Shown: one piece after another, positions 2,828-46,986 of the stretch
Layout: each line of letters opens with the position of its first letter
Position numbering within the stretch: position 1 is the stretch's first letter
IMG/VR virus record: IMGVR_UViG_3300034279_002133
Coordinates: 1 to 53,841 of that record
Direction: 5' to 3' (one strand)
DNA: 53,841 nt
Origin: a virus
The notes under the pieces: model-generated
The model's database searches: none
Seen by the model: the letters and a program-made list of their open reading frames with translations, nothing else
Told to the model about the DNA's origin: nothing
Translations under genes and position numbers: made by a program

Positions 2828-5596
2828 TCACTCTGGGTTTTCTCTAACTTGTTGGATTCTTTGCTGGGCGATGTCTAGGTACGTTTCTTCCATTTCAATG
2901 CCAACGAAGTTAAATCCTTCGAGTAGTGCAGCCTTTCCAGTTGTTCCAGAGCCAAGGAATGGATCAAGTACGGTACCACCGGGCGGCGTAATTAAGCGGC
3001 ACAAGTATCGCATTAAATCTGTCGGTTTGACTGTAGGGTGATTGTTGGTTTCACCATTGAGACCTTCGTTTCTGTCTTTTTTATTGGCTTTGGGGCAGTA
3101 GAAGAACCGGGCGGCGCTGCCGGTGTCGCCATAACCTGGGTTCACGCCGTCAGGTACGGCTCTGTCGGTGCCGGTGTTCCAGTTGTAGCGCCCAGTCCCG
3201 GCGTTGATCTGCTTTGAGTTACCTCCCCGGCTGATTCCCGTCTGTGGAAACAACCCCACCACTTCGCCTTCACCCGAATGGATCAGGTTGGCGGGCCAAC
3301 GGCCGGCGGTCGTCAGCTCACCGCTTGACGTGGCCCCCGTGCTTTGTCCGCTCATTGCCGTTGCAGACACTACGGTTTCAGTGCGCACCATCACCGGCCG
3401 CGCTTCCGTCCCCACCCTGCACCCATCCACATTCAGCGCCCCGGTGCCGTGCTTCAGCACGTTGGCGGCCACGGTGCCCTCTGAGATGGGCTTGCGGGCC
3501 ATCACTACAGGCTCAAGGCTGGGGCTGACGGCCTCGGACTGGGAGGCGTCCAGAACCCGCCACGTAGCAGGCTCGATTGCAGAAAGTGTGAGGGTGCTTT
3601 GCAATAACGCAAGCGAGGCGTTGAAGATCTGCGCCGCAGTGGAAGCATTGGCACCGAACCCACCGGGAAGGCTGCACGCCTGGATGATGCTCTCGGGCGT
3701 GATCTGCGATAGACAGTAGCTCAAGGTTTTCCAGTCGGTTGTCGTTTTTGATTCCGTTTCGGTGGTGGACGTTTTCTCCCTTGCACAGACGCCTTCCAAG
3801 GTGTGCCTCCATGACGAGGCAATGCTCCAAGCGATACTTGCCGCCGCCAATGTTGACGCCGATGTATCCACTAGAGAGCTGGTAGCGCCCGCCGCCCCAG
3901 TTGCCGTTTTTCTCTCCTGCTCTCCCTCGTGCTGGGTTGCTGCAGGCTCTTGAGCAAAACCGATCTTCGCCTCTGGCGAGCCTGCTTGGGTAGGTCTTGA
4001 ACTGCTTGCCGCAGCATTCGCAATTTGTAAGCACTGCGCCTCTAGTTCTGTTAGGTTCTCTAAAATTATAGCGCAGTAACCCATTGAGTCTACGGGCTTT
4101 GTGGCCCATGTCACGCTTTCAAAGGACGGTTTCAACGCGGTGCCCCAGCCGGCCCACTGCTGGGCTTCGGGGGTGATGCCCTGCGGCTTTACATAATCGG
4201 GGTGATCCGATCGCAGCTCTGGGCGTTGAATCACGCCTAGGCCCGAAGTTTTGCCAGCCACATTGAATCCCACGCTGTCATGCCCTCTGGCCCCTGCCGC
4301 CTTATCAATCGCCTTGCTCACATCCAGTGACTTCGGAAATCCGCTATTACCTGAAATAAACGGCTTACCATTTCTACGCACCAAGAACGCTCCGGTATCC
4401 GTCTTTAAGCACCAAACTTTATCACCGCTGTAACTAACTTTCTCTACGTTGTGTTTTGCCTGTAACTCAGTTGTGCAGCTTTTTCGATTAAGGTGTACGC
4501 ACCCTTTCCCGTAATCAATATGGTTACGAATAGCCAATGAGCTACAAATTGCTGAAACAATGTCAAGATATTGGGGCTTCTTTGACCAGAAAGTCTCAGC
4601 GGTCGTGTCTTTAGGCATAGAGCCGTCACCGTCAAGCAACCCCTTTAAGAGCGCGCCCCGGCTATAATAATCAAACTTAAGAACATCCCACTTTAATTGA
4701 CGGTCTGCGTAGTTTTCCAGCATGAAGTCAGCCAAATTGCCTGTAACGTAGAAACTGTGCTCATCTTTGTGATTAGGGTTCTTCGCTACTTTCACATACT
4801 CTGAGAATTTGCAGTTTTCAGAACTCAGACTATCCCGCAACTTAATAAGTGTGTCTGGCTTGGACTGCGAAAACATAATAGCTTTCCCGCCCTTGTGTTT
4901 CCAAGCGTCAGTCAACCACCAACCAATCATGTATGCGCGTGGCTCGTAAATACCCTCATTAAGATGCGAAGCCAACGGGAATACTTTAAGCCAACTCTTT
5001 TTAACATCACTAGCTAGAGTTACATCAAAGTCTGAGTATTCGTAGCGGGAGTTTGTTTTGTGTTTAAGGTAAACACGATGTTTTGCGGTAAGCAATTGAT
5101 CAGTATGCCTGTTTTGAAAATGGATCATACTGTCTGGTGCATCATATACTAACACTTCGTTCGGAGTAAACCAACTGAACTCATTGCTGGTGTGATTCCA
5201 TTGCAAGATTTTGTCTTTATTTGGTTGGATATCTTTGTAGTGTTTCCACCCAGAGTCAGTCAAACACTCGGTGTCTTCCGAGTAACACCCGTAGACCCAC
5301 GCGATCATGTCCCGAATTTCAAATCCCGCATCCTCAATCCGCACCGCCATCCGGTGCTGCGTGCGCGTACCAGCAAATGACAGTAAATGTCCACCAGGCT
5401 TCAAGACCCGTAGGCACTCTTTCCAAATATCAACACTTGGCACATCATAATCCCATTTTTTACCCATAAACGCCAGCCCATAGGGAGGATCAGTACAAAT
5501 AGCATCGATACTATTGTCGGGCATTTCCTTTAATACATCGAGGCAATTGCCATGGTAGAGTTGATAGCGATCTTCGGAAACGTAAGGCTTAATCAT
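2828..5596 (-). CDS. DNA methyltransferase (N6/N4 type) with intein and internal insertion
   Basis: 922 residues. The methylase parts are residues 1-103 (catalytic TDPPYG at 35-40), 418-500 (SGFPKSLDVSKAIDKAAGA, GWGTALKP) and the C-terminal ~200 residues (VVMARKPISEGT, GTGALNVDGCRV, HPTVKPTDLMRYL, SAM-binding DPFLGSGTTG). This is the phage-type N6_N4 methylase fold, which modifies adenine or cytosine, probably to protect phage DNA. Two insertions interrupt it: an intein (104-417) and a ~190-residue segment between GTALKPSFES and SLEPVVMARKP that overlaps an HNH nuclease gene in another frame. The start overlaps the topoisomerase stop as ATGA, implying translational coupling. With the intein removed it is still longer than typical relatives because of the second insertion. 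Confidence 0.9.
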   Translation of the reverse strand: MIKPYVSEDRYQLYHGNCLDVLKEMPDNSIDAICTDPPYGLAFMGKKWDYDVPSVDIWKECLRVLKPGGHLLSFAGTRTQHRMAVRIEDAGFEIRDMIAWVYGCYSEDTECLTDSGWKHYKDIQPNKDKILQWNHTSNEFSWFTPNEVLVYDAPDSMIHFQNRHTDQLLTAKHRVYLKHKTNSRYEYSDFDVTLASDVKKSWLKVFPLASHLNEGIYEPRAYMIGWWLTDAWKHKGGKAIMFSQSKPDTLIKLRDSLSSENCKFSEYVKVAKNPNHKDEHSFYVTGNLADFMLENYADRQLKWDVLKFDYYSRGALLKGLLDGDGSMPKDTTAETFWSKKPQYLDIVSAICSSLAIRNHIDYGKGCVHLNRKSCTTELQAKHNVEKVSYSGDKVWCLKTDTGAFLVRRNGKPFISGNSGFPKSLDVSKAIDKAAGARGHDSVGFNVAGKTSGLGVIQRPELRSDHPDYVKPQGITPEAQQWAGWGTALKPSFESVTWATKPVDSMGYCAIILENLTELEAQCLQIANAAASSSRPTQAGSPEAKIGFAQEPAATQHEGEQERKTATGAAGATSSLVDTSASTLAAASIAWSIASSWRHTLEGVCAREKTSTTETESKTTTDWKTLSYCLSQITPESIIQACSLPGGFGANASTAAQIFNASLALLQSTLTLSAIEPATWRVLDASQSEAVSPSLEPVVMARKPISEGTVAANVLKHGTGALNVDGCRVGTEARPVMVRTETVVSATAMSGQSTGATSSGELTTAGRWPANLIHSGEGEVVGLFPQTGISRGGNSKQINAGTGRYNWNTGTDRAVPDGVNPGYGDTGSAARFFYCPKANKKDRNEGLNGETNNHPTVKPTDLMRYLCRLITPPGGTVLDPFLGSGTTGKAALLEGFNFVGIEMEETYLDIAQQRIQQVRENPE
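3513..4109 (-). CDS. HNH endonuclease nested in the methylase gene, different frame
   Basis: A 198-residue open frame lying wholly inside the methylase coding region but in another frame of the same strand. It reads as a complete HNH homing-type nuclease: an N-terminal zinc finger (CECCGKQF...FCSRACSN), a beta-strand stretch (GGGRYQLSSGYIGVNI), the HNH core (LEHCLVMEAHLGRRL, VHHRNGIKNDNRLENLELLS, HAREHH) and a second zinc finger (CFHCGADL...FCNRACY). It starts at the ATG in GTGACATGGGCC and its stop TGA falls exactly where the conserved methylase sequence resumes (SLEPVVMARKP). So the insertion carries a nuclease in one frame while keeping the methylase frame open. Whether both are translated cannot be seen. 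Confidence 0.8.
   Translation of the reverse strand: MGHKARRLNGLLRYNFREPNRTRGAVLTNCECCGKQFKTYPSRLARGEDRFCSRACSNPARGRAGEKNGNWGGGRYQLSSGYIGVNIGGGKYRLEHCLVMEAHLGRRLCKGENVHHRNGIKNDNRLENLELLSIADHAREHHPGVQPSRWVRCQCFHCGADLQRLACVIAKHPHTFCNRACYVAGSGRLPVRGRQPQP
4346..5287 (-). other. Intein with LAGLIDADG endonuclease in the methylase
   Basis: Codons 104-417 (314 residues). It begins CYSEDTECLTDSGW (block A), has TAKHRVYL (block B, T-x-x-H) and two LAGLIDADG-type motifs, AYMIGWWLTDA and LLKGLLDGDGS, and ends FISGN followed by Ser in the extein. The extein junction G|S is restored between IAWVYG and SGFPKSL, where methylases are continuous. Block G has glycine instead of the usual penultimate histidine before the terminal Asn, a variant that can still splice in some inteins. 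Removal would restore a continuous methylase N-terminal half. Confidence 0.85.
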
Positions 5597-9913: not shown

Positions 9914-10124
9914 TTTGTTTTTTGGCGATTTTGTTAAATTGCTTCACGATAGACTCAGCTTGTGCGGGGCTGTCTACTTCAAGGAGAACAATGGAGATAC
10001 CCGCGAATAGGGACCTGACTACCCTTGAACCCTGGGTAGTATAGGTTGCTGTGCCAACTTTTAGGGTATTACGTAGAATGAAGCTAATTAGGGGGATTTG
10101 TGGAATTACCATTTTCTCCATCAC
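9903..10124 (-). CDS. Small hypothetical protein
   Basis: 73 residues, overlapping the DUF1517 gene by 4 bases upstream and the phosphoesterase by 11 downstream, which supports translation. It has a hydrophobic stretch (SLFAGISIVLLEV) and a C-terminal basic helix (VKQFNKIAKKQ). No family recognised. Confidence 0.6.
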   Translation of the reverse strand: MMEKMVIPQIPLISFILRNTLKVGTATYTTQGSRVVRSLFAGISIVLLEVDSPAQAESIVKQFNKIAKKQNAN

Positions 10125-11185
10125 AAAATATTCAAATCGGGGTACAAACTCAAAAGCTCCTCCTTCGAAAGAACATCATACTCATCTTCCGGTTGCCAGA
10201 TAATCTCAAGGGCGACTAGGTCATCAGGTGTAATGGAGCCCAGAGCCACCAGATTTGATTTTAGGTTCTCATGTGAATCGGATGGCCTTAGGTTAAGATT
10301 CTCATTTGTAGCCGCCAGGACACTCACAAGGATGTATTCGTTGTCTTGGGTTTTTTCGTGAGCCTTTTCCTTACTCTTTGAGAGACGACCGTCAACGTTC
10401 GTCAAAGTTTCTTCCGACGCTCGGGAACGCTCTTCCATGGAGAACTGGTTAAAGAGATCTTCCGCATTGTCAATGGACTCCCTGTTCTTATCACTCCAAG
10501 CGTAGATTACCTTATCAGGGTGCCGGAGAAGCGTAAGGGTCGTTTCTTGCAGGATCTTGGCAAGACCGTATGAACTGTCGGTATCTCCTTGTTCGGCCAT
10601 CCGAATTAGGTCAGATTGAATGTCTTTGGCTGACGCGAGTAGGGCTACCCGTTGACGCACTACTGTGAGTTTCTTATACTTTTCTTTTTGGGTGCTTAAC
10701 CACGGGCCTACAAAGTCTTCCCACCCTCCGCACAAAAGAATGACCGCAATAATTACCACACCCATTGAAGCAAGCAGAGTCAAAAGAACCACCGGATTGG
10801 CAGGTTGTTGGCTAACTGTGGTTACTTGTGAGGGCGAGGGGTATGGGATAGCCGGTGCGAGATTTGGAGTCAAGTCAGGCATGACGATGATGTTAGTGCT
10901 TGAACGACTTGGAGGGTTGTAAGAAGGTCTAGGGGCAGGCAAGGGAGTGTATGTTCTCGGTGCTGAGTAACTATGGCTGGGACTACGACGGCTGTAGCTC
11001 GGGGTGCTAGGACGACTATAGCTCGGCCTACTATAGCTCGGGGAACTAGAGCGGCTGCGAAAGCTACTACCGCCGATGCGACCGGCAGATGCAGCAAAAG
11101 CGGGTGTTGCTGTTAGTAGCATCGCAATCGTGAGCGTCAGAATTATTGTCTTGAGTGATTTGGTGTTCATGGGTTTCATTTTCAT
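10121..11185 (-). CDS. DUF1517-family membrane protein (cyanobacterial type)
   Basis: 354 residues. Residues 1-31 are a signal peptide or first membrane segment ending LLTATPAFAASA. GRIGGSSFRSRSSSPSYSRP starts a Ser/Pro/Tyr low-complexity region, and a strong TM segment (VVLLTLLASMGVVIIAVILL) lies near 130-152. The C-terminal domain (LTVVRQRVALLASAKDIQSD, GLAKILQETTLTLLRHP) is the conserved part of DUF1517, known to me from cyanobacteria and plastid-bearing eukaryotes as a thylakoid or envelope membrane protein of unclear function. In this setting it is probably a host-derived accessory gene acting in host membranes. Its 5' leader has two adjacent hairpins. Confidence 0.85.
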   Translation of the reverse strand: MKMKPMNTKSLKTIILTLTIAMLLTATPAFAASAGRIGGSSFRSRSSSPSYSRPSYSRPSTPSYSRRSPSHSYSAPRTYTPLPAPRPSYNPPSRSSTNIIVMPDLTPNLAPAIPYPSPSQVTTVSQQPANPVVLLTLLASMGVVIIAVILLCGGWEDFVGPWLSTQKEKYKKLTVVRQRVALLASAKDIQSDLIRMAEQGDTDSSYGLAKILQETTLTLLRHPDKVIYAWSDKNRESIDNAEDLFNQFSMEERSRASEETLTNVDGRLSKSKEKAHEKTQDNEYILVSVLAATNENLNLRPSDSHENLKSNLVALGSITPDDLVALEIIWQPEDEYDVLSKEELLSLYPDLNIL

Positions 11186-18314: not shown

Positions 18315-18549
18315 ATAGGGTGAATTGGTCAGGGTCAGCAGGCATGGCCTTTGGTGCTTTTACTCTTTCCGAAATTAGTTGCCGGTTGATCTCATCACAC
18401 CAGGTTTTGTATGGGTAATACTCCCTCAACCCAAATGGATAAGCCTCTCGGAGTTTGCTGCGGAGGATTTTCAGGTCGGCAGTTCCAACTTCGGAGATGA
18501 CGCGGGCGATTATCGGAGCGGCCCGCTCTCTCCAGGTTAGGTATTTCAT
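18304..18549 (-). CDS. Small phage protein (AYPFGxRxYxPYK family)
   Basis: 81 residues: WRERAAPIIARVISEVG, LRSKLREAYPFGLREYYPYK, TWCDEINRQL. I recall this motif set from many phages, function unknown. ATGA overlap with the end of tyrosyl-tRNA synthetase, so it is co-translated from the same message. Confidence 0.78.
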   Translation of the reverse strand: MKYLTWRERAAPIIARVISEVGTADLKILRSKLREAYPFGLREYYPYKTWCDEINRQLISERVKAPKAMPADPDQFTLFES

Positions 18550-19715
18550 TGCTGGATGAATTTAAAAATTTCTTTCTTGGAAAGCCTAATGATTTGATTG
18601 TTTAGGATTTCTATTGAAGGGATGATCGTGGTGTCATCCGATACCTTAATTCCGGACAAAACGACAGACCCGGCTCTGATTTTACGTCTGGCATCGCTGG
18701 TGCTTTTTACTAGGTTGAGTGTTTTTAGCAGGTTGGCTAGTGGTATAGGGAATGTAATGCCGTTGAGAAGGGCGGTTGGCACGTTGCTGTCCGTAGGATC
18801 TGCCAGGCCAGAAAATACAATGGACTCAGCACTCTGTTTGGCCTCTAAGGCTTTGTCCATGCCGTGAAAGGTCGCCGTAACTTCGATTGCCATTTGCCGT
18901 TGCTTTTCACGGGGGTTGGTAGGGAAATCCTCTGGGCCACAATCAGTAAGCAAAGTGATGAACTCATTGACGGCACTATCGGAAATTTTCTCCAGTTTGG
19001 AAAACATGTGGAGAGGGTGCTCGTTGATTCCGATGGTGTTCCCAAGGCTCTTTGACATCTTTTGGTGGCCGTCGGTACCCACAAGAATGGGCATTAGCAG
19101 TCCGATTTGTTGCACTTCCGAGCCAAGTCCCCTTTGGATGGTTCGCCCGATACTGATGTTGAACTTTTGGTCGATGCCACCTAGTTCTACATCAGATTGG
19201 GCAACAAAGCTGTCGAAACCTTGCAGCAACGGGTACATGAACTCGTGCAAGCTGATTGGTGTTTCGTTTTTTAGACGGTTGGAGAAATCTTGCTTAGCCA
19301 ATAGCTGCTGCACAGTCATTAGAGACTGGAGCTTGATGATGTCGTTGAGTTGTAGGGATTCTAAGTGTGTGGAATTAAATATGATTTCGCATTTTTCTAT
19401 GTCAAGGAATTTTCCCATAGTATCCAGAAAGGACCGCCCATTAGCGCTCACCACTTCAGGGTCAAGTTGCGGGCGAGTTGTGTTTTTGCCGGTTGGATCC
19501 CCAATCCTAGCAGTGAAATCACCGATAATTACAACCGGAGTATGACCCTCTTGCTGGAAGGCACGGAGCTTCCTCAGAAGCACAGAATGCCCCAGGTGCA
19601 AAAAATCTGAAGTCGGATCGAATCCAAGCTTGATGCGTTTGGGTTGTGATAGGAATTGGTTTAGGTTGGTGGCAGGTAGTACATCAACGATGCCGCTTTG
19701 TATGGGTCTTATCAT
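18546..19715 (-). CDS. tyrS: Tyrosyl-tRNA synthetase
   Basis: 389 residues from the ATG at 19715. HLGH (40-43) with KLGFDPTSDFLHLGH, GDFTARIGDPTGKNTTRP, SDVELGGIDQKFNISIGR and KMSKS (219-223) show a complete class I active site of the TyrZ-like branch; the C-terminus (about 320-389) is an S4 RNA-binding domain. It charges tRNA-Tyr. It appears intact, so the phage may bring its own enzyme to support translation or escape a host block. An ATG at 19745 would start upstream of the promoter -10 and is rejected. The transcript predicted from that promoter begins at about the ATG, so it may be leaderless. Confidence 0.95.
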   Translation of the reverse strand: MIRPIQSGIVDVLPATNLNQFLSQPKRIKLGFDPTSDFLHLGHSVLLRKLRAFQQEGHTPVVIIGDFTARIGDPTGKNTTRPQLDPEVVSANGRSFLDTMGKFLDIEKCEIIFNSTHLESLQLNDIIKLQSLMTVQQLLAKQDFSNRLKNETPISLHEFMYPLLQGFDSFVAQSDVELGGIDQKFNISIGRTIQRGLGSEVQQIGLLMPILVGTDGHQKMSKSLGNTIGINEHPLHMFSKLEKISDSAVNEFITLLTDCGPEDFPTNPREKQRQMAIEVTATFHGMDKALEAKQSAESIVFSGLADPTDSNVPTALLNGITFPIPLANLLKTLNLVKSTSDARRKIRAGSVVLSGIKVSDDTTIIPSIEILNNQIIRLSKKEIFKFIQQ

Positions 19716-19721
19716 GTTCCT

Positions 19722-19750
19722 ATTATAGGATCTCTTAGGCGGCAAGTAAA
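19722..19750 (-). promoter_or_regulatory. Sigma70 promoter of tyrS
   Basis: Minus-strand TTTACT, 17 bases, TATAAT, then AGGAAC-ATG. The start codon lies 6 bases after the -10 box, so little or no leader is expected. Confidence 0.75.
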
Positions 19751-24476: not shown

Positions 24477-24500
24477 GTTTCAAGGAGATAAAGGTGGCAT

Positions 24501-24593
24501 TCATCGCATGTCATTATAATAAAGAGTCATTCTACGGTCGCATAGCTTGCACTTGTAGTATTCGCAATGGAAGTCGGACCATGTTTCTAGCAT
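24501..24593 (-). CDS. Small zinc-finger ORF, possibly 5'-truncated
   Basis: From the ATG at 24593 the product is MLETWSDFHCEYYKCKLCDR plus ten residues. The same frame stays open upstream with CPH directly before and one more Cys, completing a zinc motif I recall in phage proteins (CPH..ESWSDFHCEYYxCxxC). No ATG, GTG or TTG precedes that extension before an in-frame stop, so either a short form is used or the start has been lost. Confidence 0.5.
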   Translation of the reverse strand: MLETWSDFHCEYYKCKLCDRRMTLYYNDMR

Positions 24594-24688
24594 ATGAGGG
24601 CATGACCATGACTCTTGTTCGGTGTTGCATCTTGTGGTTTTATCGAAGGCATTATTTATCTTTATTGCGGGTTAATGTCCTTAGCAAT

Positions 24689-25306
24689 TCAGGGTGTGAG
24701 GTCATTGCGGAATGCAATCCATAGGCGCCTAAAGACATTGTACTGACAGTATTTATGAACTCTTCGCCTAATGACAAAAAGTTCGCCCTCGGCAGAAAGC
24801 AACCTTTCATTCAAAGAGGCGTTCGTATTTAATGCATCGTTGAGTTTTTCCTCTAGTTTAGATTTTTCCTGCCTGGTTTGGGTGAGGCTTTCAAGGCACT
24901 TCTCTAACTTGCCAGTCTCTACCTGTTTCTCATGCTCTAATTTTGAGATTTTTCCTGCTACTTTTTCTCCATTGAATACGTGCCATAGGATGCTTTCTAG
25001 TTCGGGTTCAACGGCGAACAGGTGGTGGTAGGTATCTACGGTGTCGTAAGTTTCTAAGTCCTTATGGGTATCGTACAATTTCCACGGTCCCGGGGGAGAA
25101 ATTCCAGGGATGCCCTGGGTTATCCTAAACGATTTACACACATGGTGCAAAGGTAGGTAGGTCTCTTTTAAATACGATGGAATATACAAGGGTGGTCCTC
25201 CTTCAACCCGGAGAGGGGACACTTCCTCAGTCATGTATCTCACACTTTCGTGATTGTATACTGGAATGACTTTAGATTGAAGGGTGTATAAGGTGGCGGT
25301 TTGCAT
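24689..25306 (-). CDS. Coiled-coil hypothetical protein
   Basis: About 205 residues from the ATG at 25306 (MQTATLYTLQSKVIPVYNHE); the earlier TTG next to the deacetylase stop is less likely. Residues ~120-185 are a coiled coil (KISKLEHEKQVETGKLEKCL, KSKLEEKLNDALN), followed by a basic end. No known family. Immediately downstream of the deacetylase-family gene. Confidence 0.65.
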   Translation of the reverse strand: MQTATLYTLQSKVIPVYNHESVRYMTEEVSPLRVEGGPPLYIPSYLKETYLPLHHVCKSFRITQGIPGISPPGPWKLYDTHKDLETYDTVDTYHHLFAVEPELESILWHVFNGEKVAGKISKLEHEKQVETGKLEKCLESLTQTRQEKSKLEEKLNDALNTNASLNERLLSAEGELFVIRRRVHKYCQYNVFRRLWIAFRNDLTP

Positions 25307-25348
25307 CTTGCTGTGGGGGTTATGCGATGGTATTCGATGGATAGGCAA

Positions 25349-26428
25349 TCAGACGGGGGGCCGATAAAATCCGACACCAACAACCTCTTCCCAAAGCTGC
25401 CGCATCGTTACTAGTATAGCAGCTTGGTGCCTAGAGTCAAGCAGTCCGAAATCGTGGCGGTATCGCATGGCCATTGACTGTAGGAGTTTCGGATCTGGCC
25501 CCGTAGTTTCCTCCCCAAATAGGGCAGGTTCTGGTAGGGCATCGAGGCAACCTGCAATGCAGTCACCGAGGGAATGTATTGAGTAACCGCCCTCTAGAAT
25601 CAGGGCTAAGCCAATATCTAACTCTTGGGCAATTTCCCAGATTTGCTGAGTCATTTCCCCATAACCGGAACTCGTCATTGCCATATTGGACAGAGGGTCG
25701 TCCTTGTGCGCGTCAAATCCGGCCGATATTAGGATGACTTGGGGGTCGAAGTCTCGAATGACTGGAACCACAATTTCCTTGATGCAAAATAGGTAATCGT
25801 TATCGTCAGATTCTTCTTCCAGGGCAATGTTACGATTGAAGCCAAGTCCGGCCCCAGCCCCCATTTCTTCGCTTGTTCCTGAAGAAGGGTAAGCCGACTT
25901 CTGATGAATCGAGAAGAAAAACACCTTGTTGTTTTCATAGAAAATTTCCTGGGTGCCGTTCCCATGGTGGACATCCCAATCCAGGATGAAGACTCTTTCC
26001 GCCCCTTTGGCCAGGCAGTGGGCTGCAGCGATGGCAACGTTGTTAAATACGCAAAAACCCATCCCTGTATGGGGGCGGGCGTGGTGGCCTGCGGGGCGGC
26101 ATAGTGCTACGGCGGCATCTCCACCCATGGCCACATCGGCAGCTTCAATCGCAGCCCCAGCACTCCACAATGCAGCATCGACTGAATGCTCAGTCAGTGG
26201 TGCTCCGGGTCCTGCGGATCCTTTTTGGCCTTGCTGTTTGAGGACGCTACGGATGTAATCTGGCGTATGAGCTGTGGCAATTTCCTCGAAGGTGACTGGG
26301 CGCAGTGGCCGCTGAGTGCGGTACGGCTTGATTGCTTCTAGAATTGTATCAATTCGAGCAGGGTTGTCCGGGTGGTTGTAAGTTGGGTTGTGGAGCTTGG
26401 AGAATGGGTGGTATAGGATTGTTGTCAT
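25349..26428 (-). CDS. Histone-deacetylase-superfamily enzyme
   Basis: 359 residues, complete. The zinc hydrolase signature is intact: RPAGHHA (H115, H116), GFCVFNNVAIAAAH, LDWDVHHGNGTQ (D152, H154 as metal ligands), FFSIHQ, ISAGFDAHKDDPL (D239 ligand) and EGGYS (Y282). This is the class II-like bacterial branch (acetylpolyamine or protein deacetylases), common in cyanobacteria. With no histones the substrate could be acetyl-lysine on host proteins, acetylpolyamines or another amide. Its 5' end overlaps the upstream gene by 80 bases, unusual for this region. No truncation. Confidence 0.93.
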   Translation of the reverse strand: MTTILYHPFSKLHNPTYNHPDNPARIDTILEAIKPYRTQRPLRPVTFEEIATAHTPDYIRSVLKQQGQKGSAGPGAPLTEHSVDAALWSAGAAIEAADVAMGGDAAVALCRPAGHHARPHTGMGFCVFNNVAIAAAHCLAKGAERVFILDWDVHHGNGTQEIFYENNKVFFFSIHQKSAYPSSGTSEEMGAGAGLGFNRNIALEEESDDNDYLFCIKEIVVPVIRDFDPQVILISAGFDAHKDDPLSNMAMTSSGYGEMTQQIWEIAQELDIGLALILEGGYSIHSLGDCIAGCLDALPEPALFGEETTGPDPKLLQSMAMRYRHDFGLLDSRHQAAILVTMRQLWEEVVGVGFYRPPV

Positions 26429-26717
26429 TGTTGGGCTTCGGTAGGAATTCGGTGGGAAAGTTAATAGCTCTGTCGTTCACCATATCAATATTAATCGCAT
26501 GATAGTCGTCAATTCCTGATTTAGACACGATCCAGTCCCCGTCCCAACACTCAAAGGTGATCCATCGTTTGGTGCCAGGGCATTTGGTTACCCTTAGTCT
26601 GTCACCTCGCTTTAGGGTGGTTTTGGCCTGAGCTGTTGCTAGGTTGCAAATACGTCTCCTTTCGGAGTGGTCGGGTGTTTCAGTTTTAGGGTCTTGGGAA
26701 AGTTCCAAGTCAGTCAT
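26349..26717 (-). CDS. Conserved hypothetical protein (RVTKCPGTKR type)
   Basis: 122 residues from the ATG at 26717 (MTDLELSQDPKTETPDHSER). The core GDRLRVTKCPGTKRWITFEC and WDGDWIVSKSGIDDYHAINI resembles a small beta-rich phage/cyanobacterial protein. Its Pro-rich last 27 codons overlap the deacetylase gene, so translation may be coupled over this overlap. Confidence 0.65.
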   Translation of the reverse strand: MTDLELSQDPKTETPDHSERRRICNLATAQAKTTLKRGDRLRVTKCPGTKRWITFECWDGDWIVSKSGIDDYHAINIDMVNDRAINFPTEFLPKPNNDNNPIPPILQAPQPNLQPPGQPCSN

Positions 26718-26734
26718 TGGGAGGTGGCATGTAT

Positions 26735-26941
26735 TTAGTTTGGGCGGCGATTCCATGCGGCAATCAGCGGCTCCGGGGTCTCTCCGTCAACTTCCATGCC
26801 AGCGGGGCATTCTTCGCAATCTACCCACCATGTTGGAGCGTAAGTATCTCCCTGGTATTCGGCACAGTGCGGGCCTCTGAGGTTTATGCTTCCGCAATGG
26901 GGACATGGCTTGAGCGTGGTTGGGGACTCTGTGTCTTTCAT
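26735..26941 (-). CDS. Lar-like restriction alleviation zinc protein
   Basis: 68 residues: LKPCPHCGSINLRGPHCAEY, WVDCEECPAGMEVDG, AWNRRP. Two Cys pairs and the terminal W-N-R-R are typical of the Lar family, whose Rac-prophage member modulates type I restriction. Many phage members are untested. Overlaps the Panacea gene by 4 bases, so both may serve anti-defence. Confidence 0.75.
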   Translation of the reverse strand: MKDTESPTTLKPCPHCGSINLRGPHCAEYQGDTYAPTWWVDCEECPAGMEVDGETPEPLIAAWNRRPN

Positions 26942-27435
26942 GGTTTTTCGCTTGCGGTTGTTGAGGAATCTTGCATTCTACTTTTGAAATGATTCTCAAT
27001 GTCGTTATCATCAATGCTCACATGGGTTCTGTTGGGGTATTTTCTTATTGTTTTGCCCCATGGTCCATCGGCCACATTAACCATTCGTGTAAGTTGATAG
27101 GGATAATATTGGCCATACAGTTCCCAAATGCGCCTCAAGAGTGGGATTCTAGAGTCGTATTCTCGAAGAGTGGGGTAACCGTCGAGGGGTGAAAGGCAGG
27201 AAGGAATTGGCTCACATCCAAACTCCCCAGCAAAGCTATAAATACTTTGAAATCCAGGTCCCCATGGCATCATCGTCACTACTTCACTAATGAGGGGCTT
27301 ACCAAATAGGGCCAGGTGCCACCCGTAAGCGAAGTATACGAGTTTTTGCAACTTGGACAGCGTGATTTGCTGGCCATCTCGCCTAGCAGCATCTATGAAC
27401 CAGATGGCCACGGATAAGGTTTCTGGGTTATTCAT
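26938..27435 (-). CDS. Panacea (DUF4065/SocA-like) domain protein
   Basis: 165 residues. SVAIWFIDAARRDGQQITLS, KLQKLVYFAYGWHLALFGKP, LISEVVTMMPWGPGFQSIY give the DUF4065 fold (as in SocA and GepA). These proteins act as antitoxins or proteolysis adaptors in many toxin-antitoxin pairs. No classic toxin is adjacent: neighbours are a Lar-like protein and a 28-codon micro-ORF. A phage antitoxin that blocks host toxins would fit. Confidence 0.85.
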   Translation of the reverse strand: MNNPETLSVAIWFIDAARRDGQQITLSKLQKLVYFAYGWHLALFGKPLISEVVTMMPWGPGFQSIYSFAGEFGCEPIPSCLSPLDGYPTLREYDSRIPLLRRIWELYGQYYPYQLTRMVNVADGPWGKTIRKYPNRTHVSIDDNDIENHFKSRMQDSSTTASEKP

Positions 27436-27518
27436 TTATTTTCCGAATTATTCCAGGGCAACATCAAAGCGATGCTTTGTCGCAGGGGTTCTAGCCAATC
27501 ATCTTCAGGGTGTATCAT
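27432..27518 (-). CDS. 28-residue micro-ORF coupled to the Panacea gene
   Basis: ATG at 27518 overlaps the upstream stop (ATGA), and its own TGA overlaps the Panacea ATG (ATGA). It begins MIHPEDDWLEPLRQSIALML. Overlaps on both sides argue for real translation. Possibly a very small partner of the Panacea protein, otherwise a coupling peptide. Confidence 0.5.
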   Translation of the reverse strand: MIHPEDDWLEPLRQSIALMLPWNNSENK

Positions 27519-27817
27519 ATTAGGGACCTTAGCGGTATACCACAGGCCTTCAGCCAAAGGGCATCGTTACCGATGCGATCGGCGATCACCTTAAGCTCAG
27601 AAATATCGCATGGTACTTGTAGCCAGACTTGCTCTGAGTCTTTGTTTGGGGCGTATTTAGGGTGAGACCGATTTGCTTTTATGCAGAGGTGCCCGTCCTC
27701 ATCCATACCGTATTCTTGCCCATTGGCATCCGTCACGGTATTTCCCGCCAGCAAAACTCGAAGTAGGATTTCTACGGGTTCTTTGAGACTTGTGGATTCT
27801 TTACCATTTACAGTCAT
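27515..27817 (-). CDS. Hypothetical protein
   Basis: 100 residues: VEILLRVLLAGNTVTDANGQ, EYGMDEDGHLCIKANRSHP, WLQVPCDISELKVIADRIGN. Beta-rich N-terminal half. ATGA overlaps on both sides within the RHH-Panacea operon. No known family. Confidence 0.65.
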   Translation of the reverse strand: MTVNGKESTSLKEPVEILLRVLLAGNTVTDANGQEYGMDEDGHLCIKANRSHPKYAPNKDSEQVWLQVPCDISELKVIADRIGNDALWLKACGIPLRSLI

Positions 27818-28155
27818 ATCCCTAACCCCACAACATCACGCAAGGTGCCGTCCGAATCGCGAAGAATCACATTGCCCCCTTGCCGACGGGTATCTATTGC
27901 TTTCTTATAGAGAGCCATGGCGCGGCGGAAGATTTCACCACGGGAATGGCCCGTTTGTTCAACAAGGTCTTGCATGTCCTGGGCGAGGTCAAGTGGCATA
28001 ATTACGTCGAAGCGGCGCGGCGGTGGTTGTCGATTCACTTCCTCACCCCATTCCGACATATACATTTCTTTGAATTTTTTGGCCTTTACGTGATCTAATT
28101 TTATGGTGGCAAATAGATGTTCGAGTTTTTGATTGAACTTCTCTTCTGTATTCAT
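27814..28155 (-). CDS. Ribbon-helix-helix DNA-binding protein
   Basis: 113 residues. The RHH core is RRFDVIMPLDLAQDMQDLVE followed by QTGHSRGEIFRRAMALYKKA; the C-terminal beta arm is NVILRDSDGTLRDVVGLGI, a layout I recall from small cyanobacterial regulators. An N-terminal helix extension (1-45) may add a protein contact. Likely represses its own operon or a neighbour. Confidence 0.78.
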   Translation of the reverse strand: MNTEEKFNQKLEHLFATIKLDHVKAKKFKEMYMSEWGEEVNRQPPPRRFDVIMPLDLAQDMQDLVEQTGHSRGEIFRRAMALYKKAIDTRRQGGNVILRDSDGTLRDVVGLGI

Positions 28156-28499
28156 GATGGGTTTCCGTAAGTCTGCAGGAGCTTGGTGGCAAAGTCCACC
28201 ACGATGCCCCGAATGTCAGTGCCTTCAGTATAGGGAGAAAAAACGCCTGAATAAGAATTTTCGTAGACTAGGTCCGTTGAAACAGCCAACGCAATAATTT
28301 GGTCTGTGGTCGGGAGTGGTGGTGGTTGACGGCCAGTTGACACACCGGTAGTAGCCATTCCCCTAACTTCAGCAACAAACTCTAGGCAAGTTACTCTTTC
28401 AGGACAGGTAAAGCAGTCGTTCTCTGCAATTTCCTGAAAAGATTTGGTTCGGCCTGGACTATAACATTCTGGCTTTTTGCGGGCTTGAAATTCCATCAA
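28152..28499 (-). CDS. Cys-rich phage protein
   Basis: 115 residues. N-terminal CYSPGRTKSFQEIAENDCFT and CPERVTCLEF: four Cys in an arrangement that could hold an Fe-S cluster or zinc, reminiscent of but not equal to WhiB-type motifs. The C-terminal domain (TDQIIALAVSTDLVYEN, IRGIVVDFATKLLQTYG) occurs in small phage proteins I recall. Coupled to the HD gene (ATGA). Confidence 0.68.
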   Translation of the reverse strand: MMEFQARKKPECYSPGRTKSFQEIAENDCFTCPERVTCLEFVAEVRGMATTGVSTGRQPPPLPTTDQIIALAVSTDLVYENSYSGVFSPYTEGTDIRGIVVDFATKLLQTYGNPS

Positions 28500-28978
28500 A
28501 AATCACCTCCGTCAATCTCTTGGAGTTTAGCCATAATCTCCATGTAGAAAACATGGTACTTTGCCATTCGAGCAATGTCCTTCTCGGTTACACCTTTGAG
28601 GCGGCGCACATCGGTATTATGTCGGAGATCGCAGAGTTTCACCCTCATTGCATCCTCATTGGCAAAGACTCGGTGCTTGTATTCATCGTAGGTTTCCCCC
28701 GGAAGCTTAGTCAGGGCGCGGATGCCTTCGATTACCCGATGGGTGAATCCTTGCTCCCGGAGATCCGCATACGTCACCTTGGTATCTTCGATAATGTCGT
28801 GACCAAGCGCAATGCACTGGAGGTCTTCGTCGTCTGATTTTAGGAAATACATTACCTTCAGCGGGTGAAGGATATAAGGCTTTCCACCTTTGTCATACTG
28901 TCCAGCGTGGGCATTGGTTGCCAGAACCAGCATCTTGTTTAGCTGTTCGCCTTTTTGCATTTTGCTCGGGGTTTGCAT
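28496..28978 (-). CDS. HD-domain hydrolase, ppGpp-hydrolase (MESH1/SpoT) type
   Basis: 160 residues. NAHAGQYDKGGKPYILHPLK (H24, H38), ALGHDIIEDTKVT (HD at 60-61, ED at 64-65) and VKLCDLRHNTDVRRLKG match stand-alone SpoT/MESH1 hydrolases, which remove pyrophosphate from (p)ppGpp with Mn2+. A phage enzyme could blunt the host stringent response or act on another nucleotide alarm signal. A -10 box lies at 29001-29006. All key residues are present. Confidence 0.85.
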   Translation of the reverse strand: MQTPSKMQKGEQLNKMLVLATNAHAGQYDKGGKPYILHPLKVMYFLKSDDEDLQCIALGHDIIEDTKVTYADLREQGFTHRVIEGIRALTKLPGETYDEYKHRVFANEDAMRVKLCDLRHNTDVRRLKGVTEKDIARMAKYHVFYMEIMAKLQEIDGGDF

Positions 28979-42784: not shown

Positions 42785-43100
42785 GGGTTGTTTGTTTGCA
42801 TTTCGTAATAATGCTAGTGGGAGTAATACAAACGTACTAGCTTACCCGGTGAGTTTGCGCTTCGGGTGTCGCGGTCCGGTGAGTTTGCGCTTCGGGTGTC
42901 GCGGTCCGGTGAGTTTGCCGGTCGGTGAGTTTGCCGGTCGGTGAGTTAACTATCGGGTGCGATGTTACAAAACTTTACATACCGGGGCAGGGAGTTTAAC
43001 CGTAATGAGTTAGCCACCCGGTGACAACACAAAACTTAACATTCCGGTGGTAGCTTCACGGCAATGAGTTAGCCACTCGGTGTCAGCACACCATGGCAGG
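42785..43100. repeat. Intergenic dispersed-repeat block
   Basis: Holds GAGTAATACAAACGTACTAG, GAGTTTGCGCTTCGGGTGTC twice, GAGTTTGCCGGTCGGT twice, GATGTTACAAAACTTTACAT and ACAAAACTTAACATTCCG. No gene in 42724-43165. Confidence 0.78.
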
Positions 43101-43118
43101 GGGCATGTGAAACCAGCA

Positions 43119-43144
43119 TAAAGAAAGGCCGCCGATTGGCAGCC
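43119..43144 (-). terminator. Intrinsic terminator
   Basis: GGCTGCC-AATC-GGCGGCC then TTTCTTT (minus strand), after the stop at 43166. Confidence 0.75.
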
Positions 43145-43165
43145 CTTTACTATGCGGACTTTCGT

Positions 43166-43555
43166 TCACAAAGGGTTGAGATTATCATCCACATCATCCA
43201 TTCTTTCAAAGGAAGGGCAATGGAGCAGATTGCCGCTTTCCGCATACCCATCGATCACATATTGTGCGTACTGCTTAATCTTCTGCACAGCCACTTTGCT
43301 GTCTACTGTCTCCACGAACTCGCCCATGTTATAGTATGAAATCCGATCACCATTGTGGAAGTGATAAACCCTCTTTAGAATGAGGCGCATCCCGCTAACA
43401 AAAAACTCCATATCGACTTGACATTCGTCCCCTACCCCAAAGAATACGGGAAATGTATACAAATCGTTAGGGGAGGGATTAGCCCAGGGGCTGGAATTTT
43501 CCCACTGAAGGGTAACTGAAGTCGTCCCACGAGAAATGATCGAGGAGGTGGGCAT
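43166..43555 (-). CDS. Hypothetical protein
   Basis: 129 residues: MPTSSIISRGTTSVTLQWEN, FPVFFGVGDECQVDMEFFVS, GMRLILKRVYHFHNGDRISY, then a helical acidic end. Beta-rich core. One of the larger array genes; no family known. Own promoter and terminator. Confidence 0.7.
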   Translation of the reverse strand: MPTSSIISRGTTSVTLQWENSSPWANPSPNDLYTFPVFFGVGDECQVDMEFFVSGMRLILKRVYHFHNGDRISYYNMGEFVETVDSKVAVQKIKQYAQYVIDGYAESGNLLHCPSFERMDDVDDNLNPL

Positions 43556-43578
43556 GGTGCGTTCCGGTTGACTCTGTA

Positions 43579-43587
43579 ATTATAGCA
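43579..43587 (-). promoter_or_regulatory. Extended -10 promoter (TGC-TATAAT)
   Basis: Drives the gene at 43555. Confidence 0.7.
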
Positions 43588-43609
43588 TGGGGCGGGAGCC
43601 TGCTGTGGG

Positions 43610-43806
43610 TTTCCGGGGGTTTTGTTTGCATTCCGTAATAATGCCGGGTCGGTGAGTTTGCGGTTCGGTGAGTTGACCATCGGGTGAGATGTTACAAAAC
43701 TTAACACACCGGGGCAGGGGGTTTGACCGTAATGAGTTAGCCACTCGGTGTCAACACAAAACTTAACACATCATGGCAGGGGGTTTGACCGTAATGAGTT
43801 AAACCC
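43610..43806. repeat. Intergenic dispersed-repeat block
   Basis: GGTTTTGTTTGCATTCCGTA, GATGTTACAAAACTTAACAC, ACACAAAACTTAACACATC, GTTTGACCGTAATGAGTTA twice. No gene. Confidence 0.75.
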
Positions 43807-43860
43807 CCAAACAGCAAGCCCCAGCAAAGCCAGGGCAGTAGCAACAACCTGATGCAACCC

Positions 43861-44064
43861 TCAACCTCGCGCAGCCCGAGAAAAGTCCAACTCAGGGTAA
43901 ACCACCAACTCCCTAGGCAGGCTGCGGGCACGACGGGCCCATGCGTACTCATCGGAATACATCGCCTCGATGCGGGCATTATCACAGGCAACGGCAGCGG
44001 TGATACGTTCACGGGCGGCAGCACGACGGTCGGAGGCGATCTGGGTGCGGTAGGTGGTGGCCAT
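43861..44064 (-). CDS. Small helical basic protein
   Basis: 67 residues: MATTYRTQIASDRRAAARER, ITAAVACDNARIEAMYSDEY, AWARRARSLPRELVVYPELD. Function unknown. Confidence 0.68.
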   Translation of the reverse strand: MATTYRTQIASDRRAAARERITAAVACDNARIEAMYSDEYAWARRARSLPRELVVYPELDFSRAARG

Positions 44065-44090
44065 CGGGGCGTTTCGCTTGGGACCCCCTA

Positions 44091-44099
44091 ATTATAGCA
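44091..44099 (-). promoter_or_regulatory. Extended -10 promoter (TGC-TATAAT)
   Basis: Drives the gene at 44064. Confidence 0.68.
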
Positions 44100-44117
44100 T
44101 GGTGGGGCCTGCTGTGG

Positions 44118-44248
44118 GTTACTAATGGTTTTGTTTGCGTTTTGTGACAGTGCCGTGGGCAATGAGTTTGCTATCGGGTGAGTTGTAACAAAACTTTACA
44201 CACCAGGGCAATGAGTTTGACGGCAATGAGTTAAACCCCGGACAGCAA
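44118..44248. repeat. Intergenic dispersed-repeat block
   Basis: GGTTTTGTTTGCGTTTTGTG, GTAACAAAACTTTACACACC, GTTTGACGGCAATGAGTTAA. Confidence 0.72.
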
Positions 44249-44253
44249 ACAGC

Positions 44254-44276
44254 AAAAAACCCCAGCGAACCGGGGC
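44254..44276 (-). terminator. Intrinsic terminator
   Basis: CCCCGG-TTCG-CTGGGG then T6 (minus strand), after the stop at 44297. Confidence 0.82.
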
Positions 44277-44296
44277 GAGATGGAAAGGTCGCGGTA

Positions 44297-44605
44297 TCAT
44301 GCGCAGCGGTAGAGCCAGCCAGTCGTCGGCTGAACCGGGCTAGGATCGGCCAAAATTGAAGCCAGCCATGCCCGAACACCTTTAGCGGGGGCTTTCCAGC
44401 TATCGGCTTTCAAGATGGCCCCGTCTGTCAGGCGTATAAAGCAGTAGACCGAACGCTGCGACTCGCAGGGAACACCACTGTGGATAGGCGCCATTGATAC
44501 CTTGGCATTGCTGCGGCCCATTTGGTAGGCGTAGGCGTAGGCGCCAGCGCTCTTACTGGTCAAAATGGCGATAAAGGCATCGATCTGGGATGTGGTGGTG
44601 GCCAT
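44297..44605 (-). CDS. Hypothetical protein
   Basis: 102 residues from MATTTSQIDAFIAILTSKSA; GAYAYAYQMGRSNAKVSMAP, CESQRSVYCFIRLTDGAILK, GVRAWLASILADP. The core resembles small phage proteins of the DGxIxKAxxWKxP type. Own promoter and terminator. Function unknown. Confidence 0.7.
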   Translation of the reverse strand: MATTTSQIDAFIAILTSKSAGAYAYAYQMGRSNAKVSMAPIHSGVPCESQRSVYCFIRLTDGAILKADSWKAPAKGVRAWLASILADPSPVQPTTGWLYRCA

Positions 44606-44632
44606 CGGGGCGTCTCGGGTGGGGACTCTGTA

Positions 44633-44641
44633 ATTGTACCA
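44633..44641 (-). promoter_or_regulatory. Extended -10 promoter (TGG-TACAAT)
   Basis: Drives the gene at 44605. Confidence 0.65.
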
Positions 44642-44682
44642 TGGATGGGCTAGGGAACGCAAGCCCCCTAACCCCGTGGCGG

Positions 44683-44844
44683 TCAGGCGACTCTAACGTG
44701 GAGGCCCCGAGCGATCTCTTTAAGTTCGGATTCAGTGCGGAAGATCAGCATGAGCCAGAATTCTCCGGTGACTTCAAGATTGTTGGCCCTGATGACGTTC
44801 ATGATGTCGTGGCGGAGGGCTTGCTTGCGTTGGGTGGCGGTCAT
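44683..44844 (-). CDS. Small helical protein
   Basis: 53 residues: MTATQRKQALRHDIMNVIRA, NNLEVTGEFWLMLIFRTESE, LKEIARGLHVRVA. Phage-like, function unknown. Its promoter overlaps the end of the upstream gene. Confidence 0.68.
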   Translation of the reverse strand: MTATQRKQALRHDIMNVIRANNLEVTGEFWLMLIFRTESELKEIARGLHVRVA

Positions 44845-44872
44845 GGGTGGCTCCCGGTTGGTTGACTCTGTA

Positions 44873-44881
44873 ATTATAGCA
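44873..44881 (-). promoter_or_regulatory. Extended -10 promoter (TGC-TATAAT)
   Basis: Drives the gene at 44844; lies just past the stop at 44895. Confidence 0.68.
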
Positions 44882-44894
44882 CGGGGCCGTAGAG

Positions 44895-45128
44895 TCAGCA
44901 ATAAGCGTTTAGAGATCCGTATGGATTGGACGAAAGATCGAAAAAACCCTCCCAGCTTTCTGCTTCAGCGCGTGCCATTGGCATCAATGGAGAGGGTGAC
45001 TGAGAAGTGCCCCACTGGTGGCGATCATTTGCTCTAGCGAGGTGATGGTGGTGCTTAATCCTGGAGCGTGTTTCACTCCAGTAGCAAGCGGTTCCATGAA
45101 AGTAGCCGTAGCCGGTTGCATTGGTCAT
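44895..45128 (-). CDS. Small His-rich protein
   Basis: 77 residues: MTNATGYGYFHGTACYWSET, RSRIKHHHHLARANDRHQWG, AEAESWEGFFDLSSNPYGSL. Function unknown. Confidence 0.65.
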   Translation of the reverse strand: MTNATGYGYFHGTACYWSETRSRIKHHHHLARANDRHQWGTSQSPSPLMPMARAEAESWEGFFDLSSNPYGSLNAYC

Positions 45129-45162
45129 GGCGGGGCGGGTGGTGGTGGTTGGTGACAGGTGA

Positions 45163-45171
45163 ATTGTAGCA
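45163..45171 (-). promoter_or_regulatory. Extended -10 promoter (TGC-TACAAT)
   Basis: Drives the gene at 45128; CTGACT lies 18 bases upstream. Confidence 0.65.
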
Positions 45172-45269
45172 TGGGTGCCGGGGCAAAGTCAGCCCCCCTG
45201 GATTCTGCGGTAAGCACGGGGGCCCGAACGGCATCCGCCGAACAGCAACCCCCCCCCCGTTCATACCCC

Positions 45270-45557
45270 TTAAAGCCCCGCAACCCTAGCAAGCTCCTGC
45301 ATGGTGCAGGGGGAAGAACCCATCAGGGGCAAGATAGCAACCTCAAAATCCGAATGCAGATTCTGCCAGCGGATAGCAGCAGCGGCGGCATCTTCGATGG
45401 ACCAGCCTTCTACGGGGCCACCCTGCAGGAACCAGCGGCGCTGATGGGCGGTGGGGGTCTCAGGCTTGACGCGAGCCCACAGGCGGTAGGTTGTTGCTGG
45501 GGCGGGGGGTTGCATCGGGGCGGGGGGTTGCATCGGGGCGGCGGTTGCAGTAGCCAT
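45270..45557 (-). CDS. Small protein with PMQPPAP repeat
   Basis: 95 residues. APMQPPAPMQPPAPATTYRL at the start comes from an 18-base tandem repeat; the rest (WSIEDAAAAAIRWQNLHSDF, CTMQELARVAGL) looks like a small folded domain. Function unknown. Confidence 0.68.
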   Translation of the reverse strand: MATATAAPMQPPAPMQPPAPATTYRLWARVKPETPTAHQRRWFLQGGPVEGWSIEDAAAAAIRWQNLHSDFEVAILPLMGSSPCTMQELARVAGL

Positions 45558-45586
45558 CGTTGCGGTGTCGGTTGGTTGACTTCGGT

Positions 45587-45595
45587 ATTATAGCA
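45587..45595 (-). promoter_or_regulatory. Extended -10 promoter (TGC-TATAAT)
   Basis: Drives the gene at 45557. Confidence 0.68.
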
Positions 45596-45634
45596 CAGGG
45601 GGCCAGAGAACACAATCCCTAACCCCCCCGGTCA

Positions 45635-45844
45635 TCAGGCGGCAGCCAGGGCCAGCCAGTCGGCGGGTAGACACGTCGGATAGGGGCAGCGGCTGGTCCA
45701 GCGGACTTCTGCCCGCAGCTCGCCGCAGTCTTCCCACATGTCAACTACTTGCCCCCGCAGGCGGTTCCAGTGGAGGACGCGACCGGCGGTGTCTTCGCCG
45801 TTGTTGGCGGGGCGGACGGTGGCTCCAATGGTGATGGTGGTCAT
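45635..45844 (-). CDS. Small SH3-like protein
   Basis: 69 residues: ITIGATVRPANNGEDTAGRV, LHWNRLRGQVVDMWEDCGEL, RAEVRWTSRCPYPTCLPADW. The alternation suggests a small beta barrel (KOW/SH3-like, GxVxW motif). Function unknown. Confidence 0.65.
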   Translation of the reverse strand: MTTITIGATVRPANNGEDTAGRVLHWNRLRGQVVDMWEDCGELRAEVRWTSRCPYPTCLPADWLALAAA

Positions 45845-45878
45845 CGCTGGTTGGGGGGGGGGGGTGCGTTACCCTGAA

Positions 45879-45887
45879 ATTATAGCA
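45879..45887 (-). promoter_or_regulatory. Extended -10 promoter (TGC-TATAAT)
   Basis: Drives the gene at 45844. Confidence 0.68.
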
Positions 45888-45904
45888 CAGGGCCGAGGGT
45901 GCTG

Positions 45905-46118
45905 GGGTTGCCGGGTGTGCCGTTGGTTTTGTTTACGTTTGGTAACAATGCCGTTGGGAGTAATGCACTTGTACTAGCTTGCCTGTGGTTTGTTTGCGCT
46001 CCGGGTGCGATGTTACAAAACTTAACATTCCGATGGCAGGAAGTTTGACGGCAAGGAGTAATACACTTGTACTAGCTTGCCCGGTAAGTCTACGCTTCGT
46101 GACGGCAGGCAAGGGGCC
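45905..46118. repeat. Intergenic dispersed-repeat block
   Basis: TTTGTTTACGTTTGGTAAC, GAGTAATGCACTTGTACTAG, GAGTAATACACTTGTACTAG, GATGTTACAAAACTTAACAT. No gene in 45845-46186. Confidence 0.75.
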
Positions 46119-46125
46119 AACATAG

Positions 46126-46186
46126 TGTCAACCCCATGGCATTGTCAACCCCATGGCATTGTCAACCCCTGGGCATCGTCAACCCC
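46126..46186. repeat. 17-bp tandem repeat
   Basis: Unit TGTCAACCCCATGGCAT, about 3.5 copies, immediately after the stop of the gene at 46187. The minus strand spells TTGACA in each unit but no -10 follows. Confidence 0.85.
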
Positions 46187-46426
46187 TCAAGCAGCAGCCA
46201 AGGCATCCAGGGCGGTAGCCAGGGCAGTAGCAGGGAAATAGCGGTCCTCACCTTCGCAGATGTCAGACAGGCACCAGCGGAAGCCGTTACGGGTCGCATC
46301 AGCGGTCAGGATGTAGTCGGCACCTTTGAAGAAGGCACGGGATCCTTCACTGAATTCCACACCGGCAGGGAGGCCTTTGCGGAGAGCAGCGTTAATCATG
46401 GTGGATGGGGTGGTTGCCGGGCCCAT
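46187..46426 (-). CDS. Small hypothetical protein
   Basis: 79 residues: MGPATTPSTMINAALRKGLP, GVEFSEGSRAFFKGADYILT, FRWCLSDICEGEDRYFPATA. Function unknown; the end lies beside the 17-bp repeats. Confidence 0.68.
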   Translation of the reverse strand: MGPATTPSTMINAALRKGLPAGVEFSEGSRAFFKGADYILTADATRNGFRWCLSDICEGEDRYFPATALATALDALAAA

Positions 46427-46452
46427 GTTGTCGTTTGGTGCGTTACCTAGTA

Positions 46453-46461
46453 ATTATAGCA
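46453..46461 (-). promoter_or_regulatory. Extended -10 promoter (TGC-TATAAT)
   Basis: Drives the gene at 46426. Confidence 0.68.
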
Positions 46462-46489
46462 TGGGGTCGAGGGTACTGTGGGTTGCCGG

Positions 46490-46690: not shown

Positions 46691-46697
46691 GGCCAAC

Positions 46698-46722
46698 AAA
46701 AAAAACCCCGGCGAACCGGGGC
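46698..46722 (-). terminator. Intrinsic terminator
   Basis: CCCCGG-TTCG-CCGGGG then T8 (minus strand), after the stop at 46749. Confidence 0.88.
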
Positions 46723-46748
46723 AGGGGCAGGGCAGTATTGGGTGGGTG

Positions 46749-46961: not shown

Positions 46962-46986
46962 TTGCCGTTTGGTGCGGTACCCTGTA

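Follow-up and report, generated by a model that had tools for sequence, protein, structure and literature searches.

The window, by which we mean the whole 53.8-kb virus record analysed here, encoded on its minus strand a protein of the histone deacetylase (HDAC) family fused to a short C-terminal phage module. We interpret this protein as a Zn2+-dependent deacylase of the class-II/cluster-1 type that would be made by a large cyanophage during infection and would most likely act on acylated lysines in host (and possibly phage) proteins, removing acetyl or propionyl groups; the probability of this reading was put at roughly 55%. The fold (predicted), the active site, the fusion, purifying selection, accessory status and the phage context are shown by the sequence; enzymatic activity, expression, the class of substrate, what the module does and how the phage would benefit are our inferences.

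The reprogramming of photosynthesis and carbon flow by cyanophages has mostly been described in terms of borrowed metabolic genes, and lysine acetylation has been reported to regulate photosynthesis in cyanobacteria. A protein deacylase encoded by a phage would offer a post-translational means of host reprogramming, and may give the virus a way to edit the acetyl marks of host proteins.

HDAC domain and active site

The ORF started with ATG, and the plus-strand reading of the same interval (25349–26428) was interrupted by stops throughout. The product matched the Pfam family Hist_deacetyl (PF00850) with 292 bits (E = 5.9e-87; curated cut-off 27.9 bits) over model positions 1–297 of 298, and a chance origin of this match can, by sequence comparison, be regarded as excluded. 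The whole 359-residue protein had no family match in PHROG and NCBIfam. The general base pair was assigned to H115/H116 and the zinc ligands to D152, H154 and D239. The other expected residues were also in place (D150, N157, G124/F125, Y180, L246 and an E279-G-G-Y282 motif with the catalytic Y282), and the catalytic and zinc positions showed no variation in an alignment with 34 cellular homologues. An AlphaFold2 model of the fusion protein (mean pLDDT 91.9, based on an alignment of 51 sequences) had the alpha/beta deacetylase fold and gave 450 PDB matches with Foldseek at E ≤ 0.001, among them bacterial HDAHs, A. baumannii Kdac1, HDAC6 and 5ZMP; the amide hydrolases DmhA and PrpH were among the best structural matches.

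The preliminary description had proposed an HDAC-family enzyme with a full set of catalytic and zinc-binding residues, and the profile match, the active site and the superposition of the model on solved deacylases bear this out. Its coordinates were also right; it had missed the minus strand, the phage-specific C-terminal module and the absence of the gene from near-identical phages. The features of the locus are listed in Table 1.

Table 1. Features of the HDAC locus in the window. G001 and G002 are related virus contigs.
Feature	Position	Strand	Remarks
HDAC–module fusion ORF	25349..26428	-	359 aa; 95% amino acid identity to the same fusion (L002) in G001
HDAC catalytic domain (predicted arginase/deacetylase fold), residues 19–297	25538..26374	-	PF00850; pLDDT mostly 90–99; 2.0 Å to 5ZMP
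Linker, residues 298–310	25499..25537	-	Low confidence at 303–308 (pLDDT < 50)
C-terminal phage module, residues 311–359, PDP-L--SMAMRYRHDFGLL...QLWEEVVG-GFY	25352..25498	-	Carried by about 30 viral contigs without HDAC
HDAC-specific indel	25500..26452	-	953 bp in the window and G001 versus 4 bp in G002; breakpoints from blastn and alignment
Gene B, upstream of HDAC, 80-nt overlap with HDAC start	26349..26756	-	Homologue fused in frame to the module (G002, L004)
Lar-type restriction-alleviation zinc-ribbon gene	26735..26941	-	PF14354, 29.1 bits (cut-off 28.6); TIGR03655 below cut-off
SocA/Panacea-domain protein	26938..27435	-	PF13274, 1.2e-8; NF047745 below cut-off
Gene downstream of HDAC	24689..25348	-	Conserved in G001–G004

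Phage context and probable host

Over long stretches, the window was syntenic with and approximately 90–95% identical to two virus contigs, G002 (103 kb) and G003 (279 kb); its relationship to two others, G001 (201 kb) and G004 (71 kb), was more distant. G003 encoded a large terminase, tail sheath, baseplate wedge, tail fibres and ribonucleotide reductase, a gene set that points to a large contractile-tailed phage. The polymerase exonuclease domain matched 11 phage records, all of them cyanobacterial phages by name (best match Synechococcus phage S-CBWM1, 50%), and the topoisomerase was 51% identical to its S-CBWM1 counterpart over the full length. A DUF1517 gene (10121–11185) was present in five of five related records; it matched control genomes of Synechococcus, Thermus and Deinobacterium, and its product had no match in 50,697 phage genomes. 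Based on the exonuclease domain, the topoisomerase and the DUF1517 gene, the host is probably a cyanobacterium. Photosystem genes of the psbA type were absent from the five related records.

HDAC genes are common in cyanobacteria, with matches in at least 168 of 386 Cyanobacteriota genomes, as would suit a fragment of a host chromosome or an assembly chimera. Such an origin is extremely improbable, as the flanks were 90–95% identical to virus records, the same fusion occurred in the independent contig G001, the module was seen in phage records only in the searches made here, and no close cellular relative was found (best 42–46% among the matches listed). The viral flanks and the second contig rule out host-chromosome origin, and the earlier view of the gene as phage-encoded was upheld by the flanks, the terminase, tail and baseplate genes of G003 and the exonuclease matches confined to cyanophages.

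Comparison with characterised deacylases

PDB entry 5ZMP ('lysine deacylase') is probably CddA, the lysine deacetylase/depropionylase of Synechococcus sp. PCC 7002, since H, H and F occupy its positions 126, 127 and 136 and cyanobacterial proteins are its closest relatives. All six residues named for the CddA pocket and catalytic site (H126, H127, F136, Y192, L255 and Y287; PMC12224894) were matched in the phage protein by H115, H116, F125, Y180, L246 and Y282. The two proteins also shared the fold (2.0 Å over 308 alignment columns) and a short L1 loop. They differed in that CddA lacked the phage module and was only about 33% identical, which was the level of identity to characterised enzymes overall.

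The class-I HDAC signature is HHGDG, and the phage protein had HHGNG instead, unlike AcuC and class I. HHGNG and the catalytic tyrosine were shared with the cluster-1 class-II HDAC/HdaH enzymes (Bordetella/Alcaligenes HDAH, P. aeruginosa HDAH and A. baumannii Kdac1), which were the top matches in structure and sequence. Unlike these enzymes, the phage protein carried the module and was without the extended L1 loop that was seen in the aligned class-II plasmid homologues and has been described for cluster 1 (PMC11532494).

A polyamine substrate, which had been suggested for this gene before, is disfavoured by three features of the sequence. Changing the Glu gatekeeper of HDAC10 to Leu converts this polyamine deacetylase into a lysine deacetylase (PMC5454378); the phage gatekeeper was Leu246, as in lysine deacetylases, and the alignment contained no P(E/A)CE 3-10 helix/L1 insert. 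The bacterial polyamine deacetylases of ApaH cluster 4 are described as head-to-head dimers that need a long L2 specificity loop (PMC11532494), and in the alignment the phage protein had no extra L2 loop relative to the two proteins used for this comparison, CddA and HDAC6 CD2. Because the CddA pocket is kept, the gatekeeper is Leu, and both the PACE insert and the long L2 loop are missing, we favour the interpretation of the protein as a putative lysine deacylase acting on proteins.

The same characters bear on the alternative of a small-molecule amidohydrolase that would deacetylate polyamines or hydrolyse other amides and so alter host metabolism. The family does hold ApaH, HDAC10, DmhA and PrpH, the last two being close in structure to our model, and functional acetylpolyamine amidohydrolases occur in giant viruses (PMC9992855); the pocket and loops nevertheless make this alternative unlikely. 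The substrate class cannot be read from the fold alone, since some cluster-1 relatives (DmhA, PrpH) hydrolyse small amides and showed no activity in certain lysine-deacylase assays (PMC11532494).

In the favoured lysine deacylase, D152, H154 and D239 would hold a zinc-bound water for activation by H115/H116, the acyl carbonyl would be polarised by Y282, and the acyl-lysine would lie in a tunnel lined by G124/F125, Y180 and L246. Chemistry and pocket would be those of the host-type cyanobacterial deacylase CddA.

The C-terminal phage module

The last approximately 47 residues of the fusion protein (311–357) constituted a separate two-helix phage module, with helices predicted by AlphaFold2 at residues 313–323 and 332–351. 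The linker stretch 303–308 is predicted to be disordered. The module had no match in Pfam or the PDB, and phrog_30214 was its sole family match. With the fusion protein as query, the viral contigs yielded a single full-length relative (L002 in G001, 95%), and a further 25 loci matched the C-terminal 50–75 or so residues only; module-bearing loci were L003–L027 and L125–L158. In all searches made here, the module was present in phage records only. The phages carrying it differ in host and included cyanophage-like phages and Enterobacterales jumbo phages.

The module was found in several settings. It was C-terminal to HDAC in the window and G001, to gene B (G002, L004), to a MORN-repeat protein in L130–L133 and to a Lar-like zinc ribbon in L134, where a relative of the Lar-type gene next to HDAC was fused directly to it; in L008–L012 and L014–L026 it was N-terminal to unrelated tails. 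Klebsiella phage BIS47 had a diverged copy, as did several jumbo phages (GAP32, BF and CBB among them), where an insertion split the module. No shared gene neighbourhood was found across module-bearing phages beyond this cyanophage group and L134. Per pair of copies, 23 of 44 differences fell at third codon positions and 5 at second positions, which argues for constraint on the protein; the similarity of the copies is partly ascertained, since exact peptides from within the module had served to find the contigs. A function as a sorting tag on multiple proteins of one genome was rejected, as 15 of the 16 phage records searched whole had a single match and the remaining one (Kaldavass) had one copy in two pieces.

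In bacterial cluster-1 enzymes, the extended L1 loop and a C-terminal helix build an active-site lid through oligomers (PMC11532494). By analogy with this lid, a role of the C-terminal helical hairpin in access, oligomerisation or recruitment is reasonable. We hypothesize that the existing 47-residue module received the HDAC domain as an in-frame insertion on its upstream side and now forms a flexible C-terminal helical hairpin. The module might supply recruitment, oligomerisation or localisation and thereby aim the deacylase at chosen targets, for which photosynthesis, carbon metabolism or another acetylated host system are candidates.

A more specific proposal, which we regard as tentative and rather doubtful, is that the module is a hitherto undescribed recruitment domain that phages with different hosts carry in one copy per genome and onto which, at this locus, different proteins (HDAC, gene B, Lar-like) are swapped. 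In the HDAC version, the module would then bring the enzyme to a specific host complex and the enzyme would reset the acyl-lysine state of that complex. If so, a module-directed HDAC would represent a post-translational takeover route undescribed for cyanophages. The shared module offers a small domain, found across large phages that differ in host, that lends itself to testing.

Presence and absence of the HDAC gene

The window and G002 were 93% identical on both sides of HDAC (24493–25499 and 26453–28052), and the segment in which they differed contained the HDAC domain plus its start. In G002, gene B ran directly and in frame into the module. In the window, gene B extended into the HDAC start in a different frame, and it was HDAC that read into the module. 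G003 and G004 had the module at the same locus without HDAC. Given that module copies lacking HDAC are widespread and that the HDAC–module form was seen only twice (window and G001), insertion of the HDAC domain ahead of an older phage module is the simpler history, with loss in G002 as the alternative. The HDAC DNA of the window and G001 was 93% identical, compared with 65–90% for the backbones elsewhere, which is consistent with an exchange of the gene between phage lineages. HDAC is an accessory cassette that appears to have taken over a phage C-terminal domain, and its absence from near-identical phages indicates that it is dispensable. Near-identical phages with and without HDAC provide a natural comparison. 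Elsewhere in the window, a gene for a 922-residue DNA methyltransferase (2828–5596) was gone almost exactly from the near-identical G003 and largely from G002, which makes it another accessory-gene polymorphism.

If the gene were merely a passenger, gained recently and of little consequence for infection, it would also be expected to be missing from near-identical phages, restricted to two contigs and low in abundance, as was the case here. This explanation is improbable: dN/dS of the HDAC domain between the window and G001 was 0.16, with 24 of 45 differences at third codon positions, and the active site was intact in two lineages with backbones 10–35% apart. The gene is under purifying selection.

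The Lar-type and SocA/Panacea genes beside HDAC (26735–27435) form a possible counter-defence cluster. Their position directly upstream, together with presence/absence between near-identical phages, which is typical of counter-defence genes, would agree with an enzyme that strips an acyl mark set by a host defence or toxin (e.g., a GNAT-type acetyltransferase) from a phage or host component. We consider this quite unlikely, as no cognate acetylating defence system was identified, the neighbourhood is weak evidence, and the Lar and Panacea calls were near or under strict NCBIfam cut-offs.

Origin of the gene and viral precedents

Cellular relatives came from many phyla and were approximately 36–46% identical among the matches listed in a profile genome scan; none of the listed cyanobacterial matches was close. 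No relative turned up when 84,980 genomes were scanned for specific peptides. In trees, the window and G001 proteins paired at the end of a long isolated branch of 1.23 changes per site. A grouping with the CddA clade was absent from the free trees; the constrained grouping was not rejected (p-AU 0.77). Recent capture from a cyanobacterial host was set aside, as the best cyanobacterial matches (about 36–46%) were no nearer than those of other phyla, among the matches listed; a closer cellular relative may exist.

The earlier impression that phage members are few proved accurate: at the sensitivity applied, 2.9 million viral contigs yielded seven loci. HDAC-family genes were already known from phages, where they are rare, and from giant viruses. 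Tailed-phage examples are Rhodococcus phage E3 gp202 (annotated as HDAC-family), Microbacterium phage Magritte gp204 (HDAC-family, annotated as hypothetical) and contigs L120–L124. Unlike the fusion protein, these lacked the 47-residue module, and they were 27–36% identical to it in partial matches. Giant viruses encode functional acetylpolyamine amidohydrolases, some of them proven polyamine deacetylases (PMC9992855). The giant-virus members (Hyperionvirus, Catovirus, Yasminevirus, Tupanvirus) are virus-encoded and of the same superfamily, but belong to viruses of eukaryotes, lack the module and were 18–27% identical in the structural search. The literature collection searched contained no paper on HDAC-family enzymes in cyanophages; the new elements are the probable cyanophage setting, the HDAC–module architecture and the natural presence/absence pair.

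Other phage HDAC matches in INPHARED (Staphylococcus, human-faecal and Pseudomonas Y10 records) were unverified or unannotated, mostly AcuC-like, and were left out as precedents because they look like host contamination. The phage records L031 and L033 (OR844993, MT836077) carried AcuC-like genes and are probably contaminated with bacterial DNA. The Magritte-type proteins formed a clade of their own with altered motifs (QGAKHHA, HHGDG).

Other features of the window and its relatives

A stand-alone HD-domain protein (28496–28978) showed RelA/SpoT hydrolase-like similarity and matched phrog_990 (metal-dependent phosphohydrolase); it is possibly a (p)ppGpp or nucleotide hydrolase. The window also encoded a tyrosyl-tRNA synthetase (18546–19745) that exceeded the NCBIfam equivalog cut-off. 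Dispersed direct repeats (242 nt and 155 nt, three copies each) were located at 42920–53286, with many further copies in G003. Two adjacent ORFs of G003 (L172:15274–18478; 576 and 472 aa) both matched terminase large subunit families and appear to represent a duplicated or split terminase.
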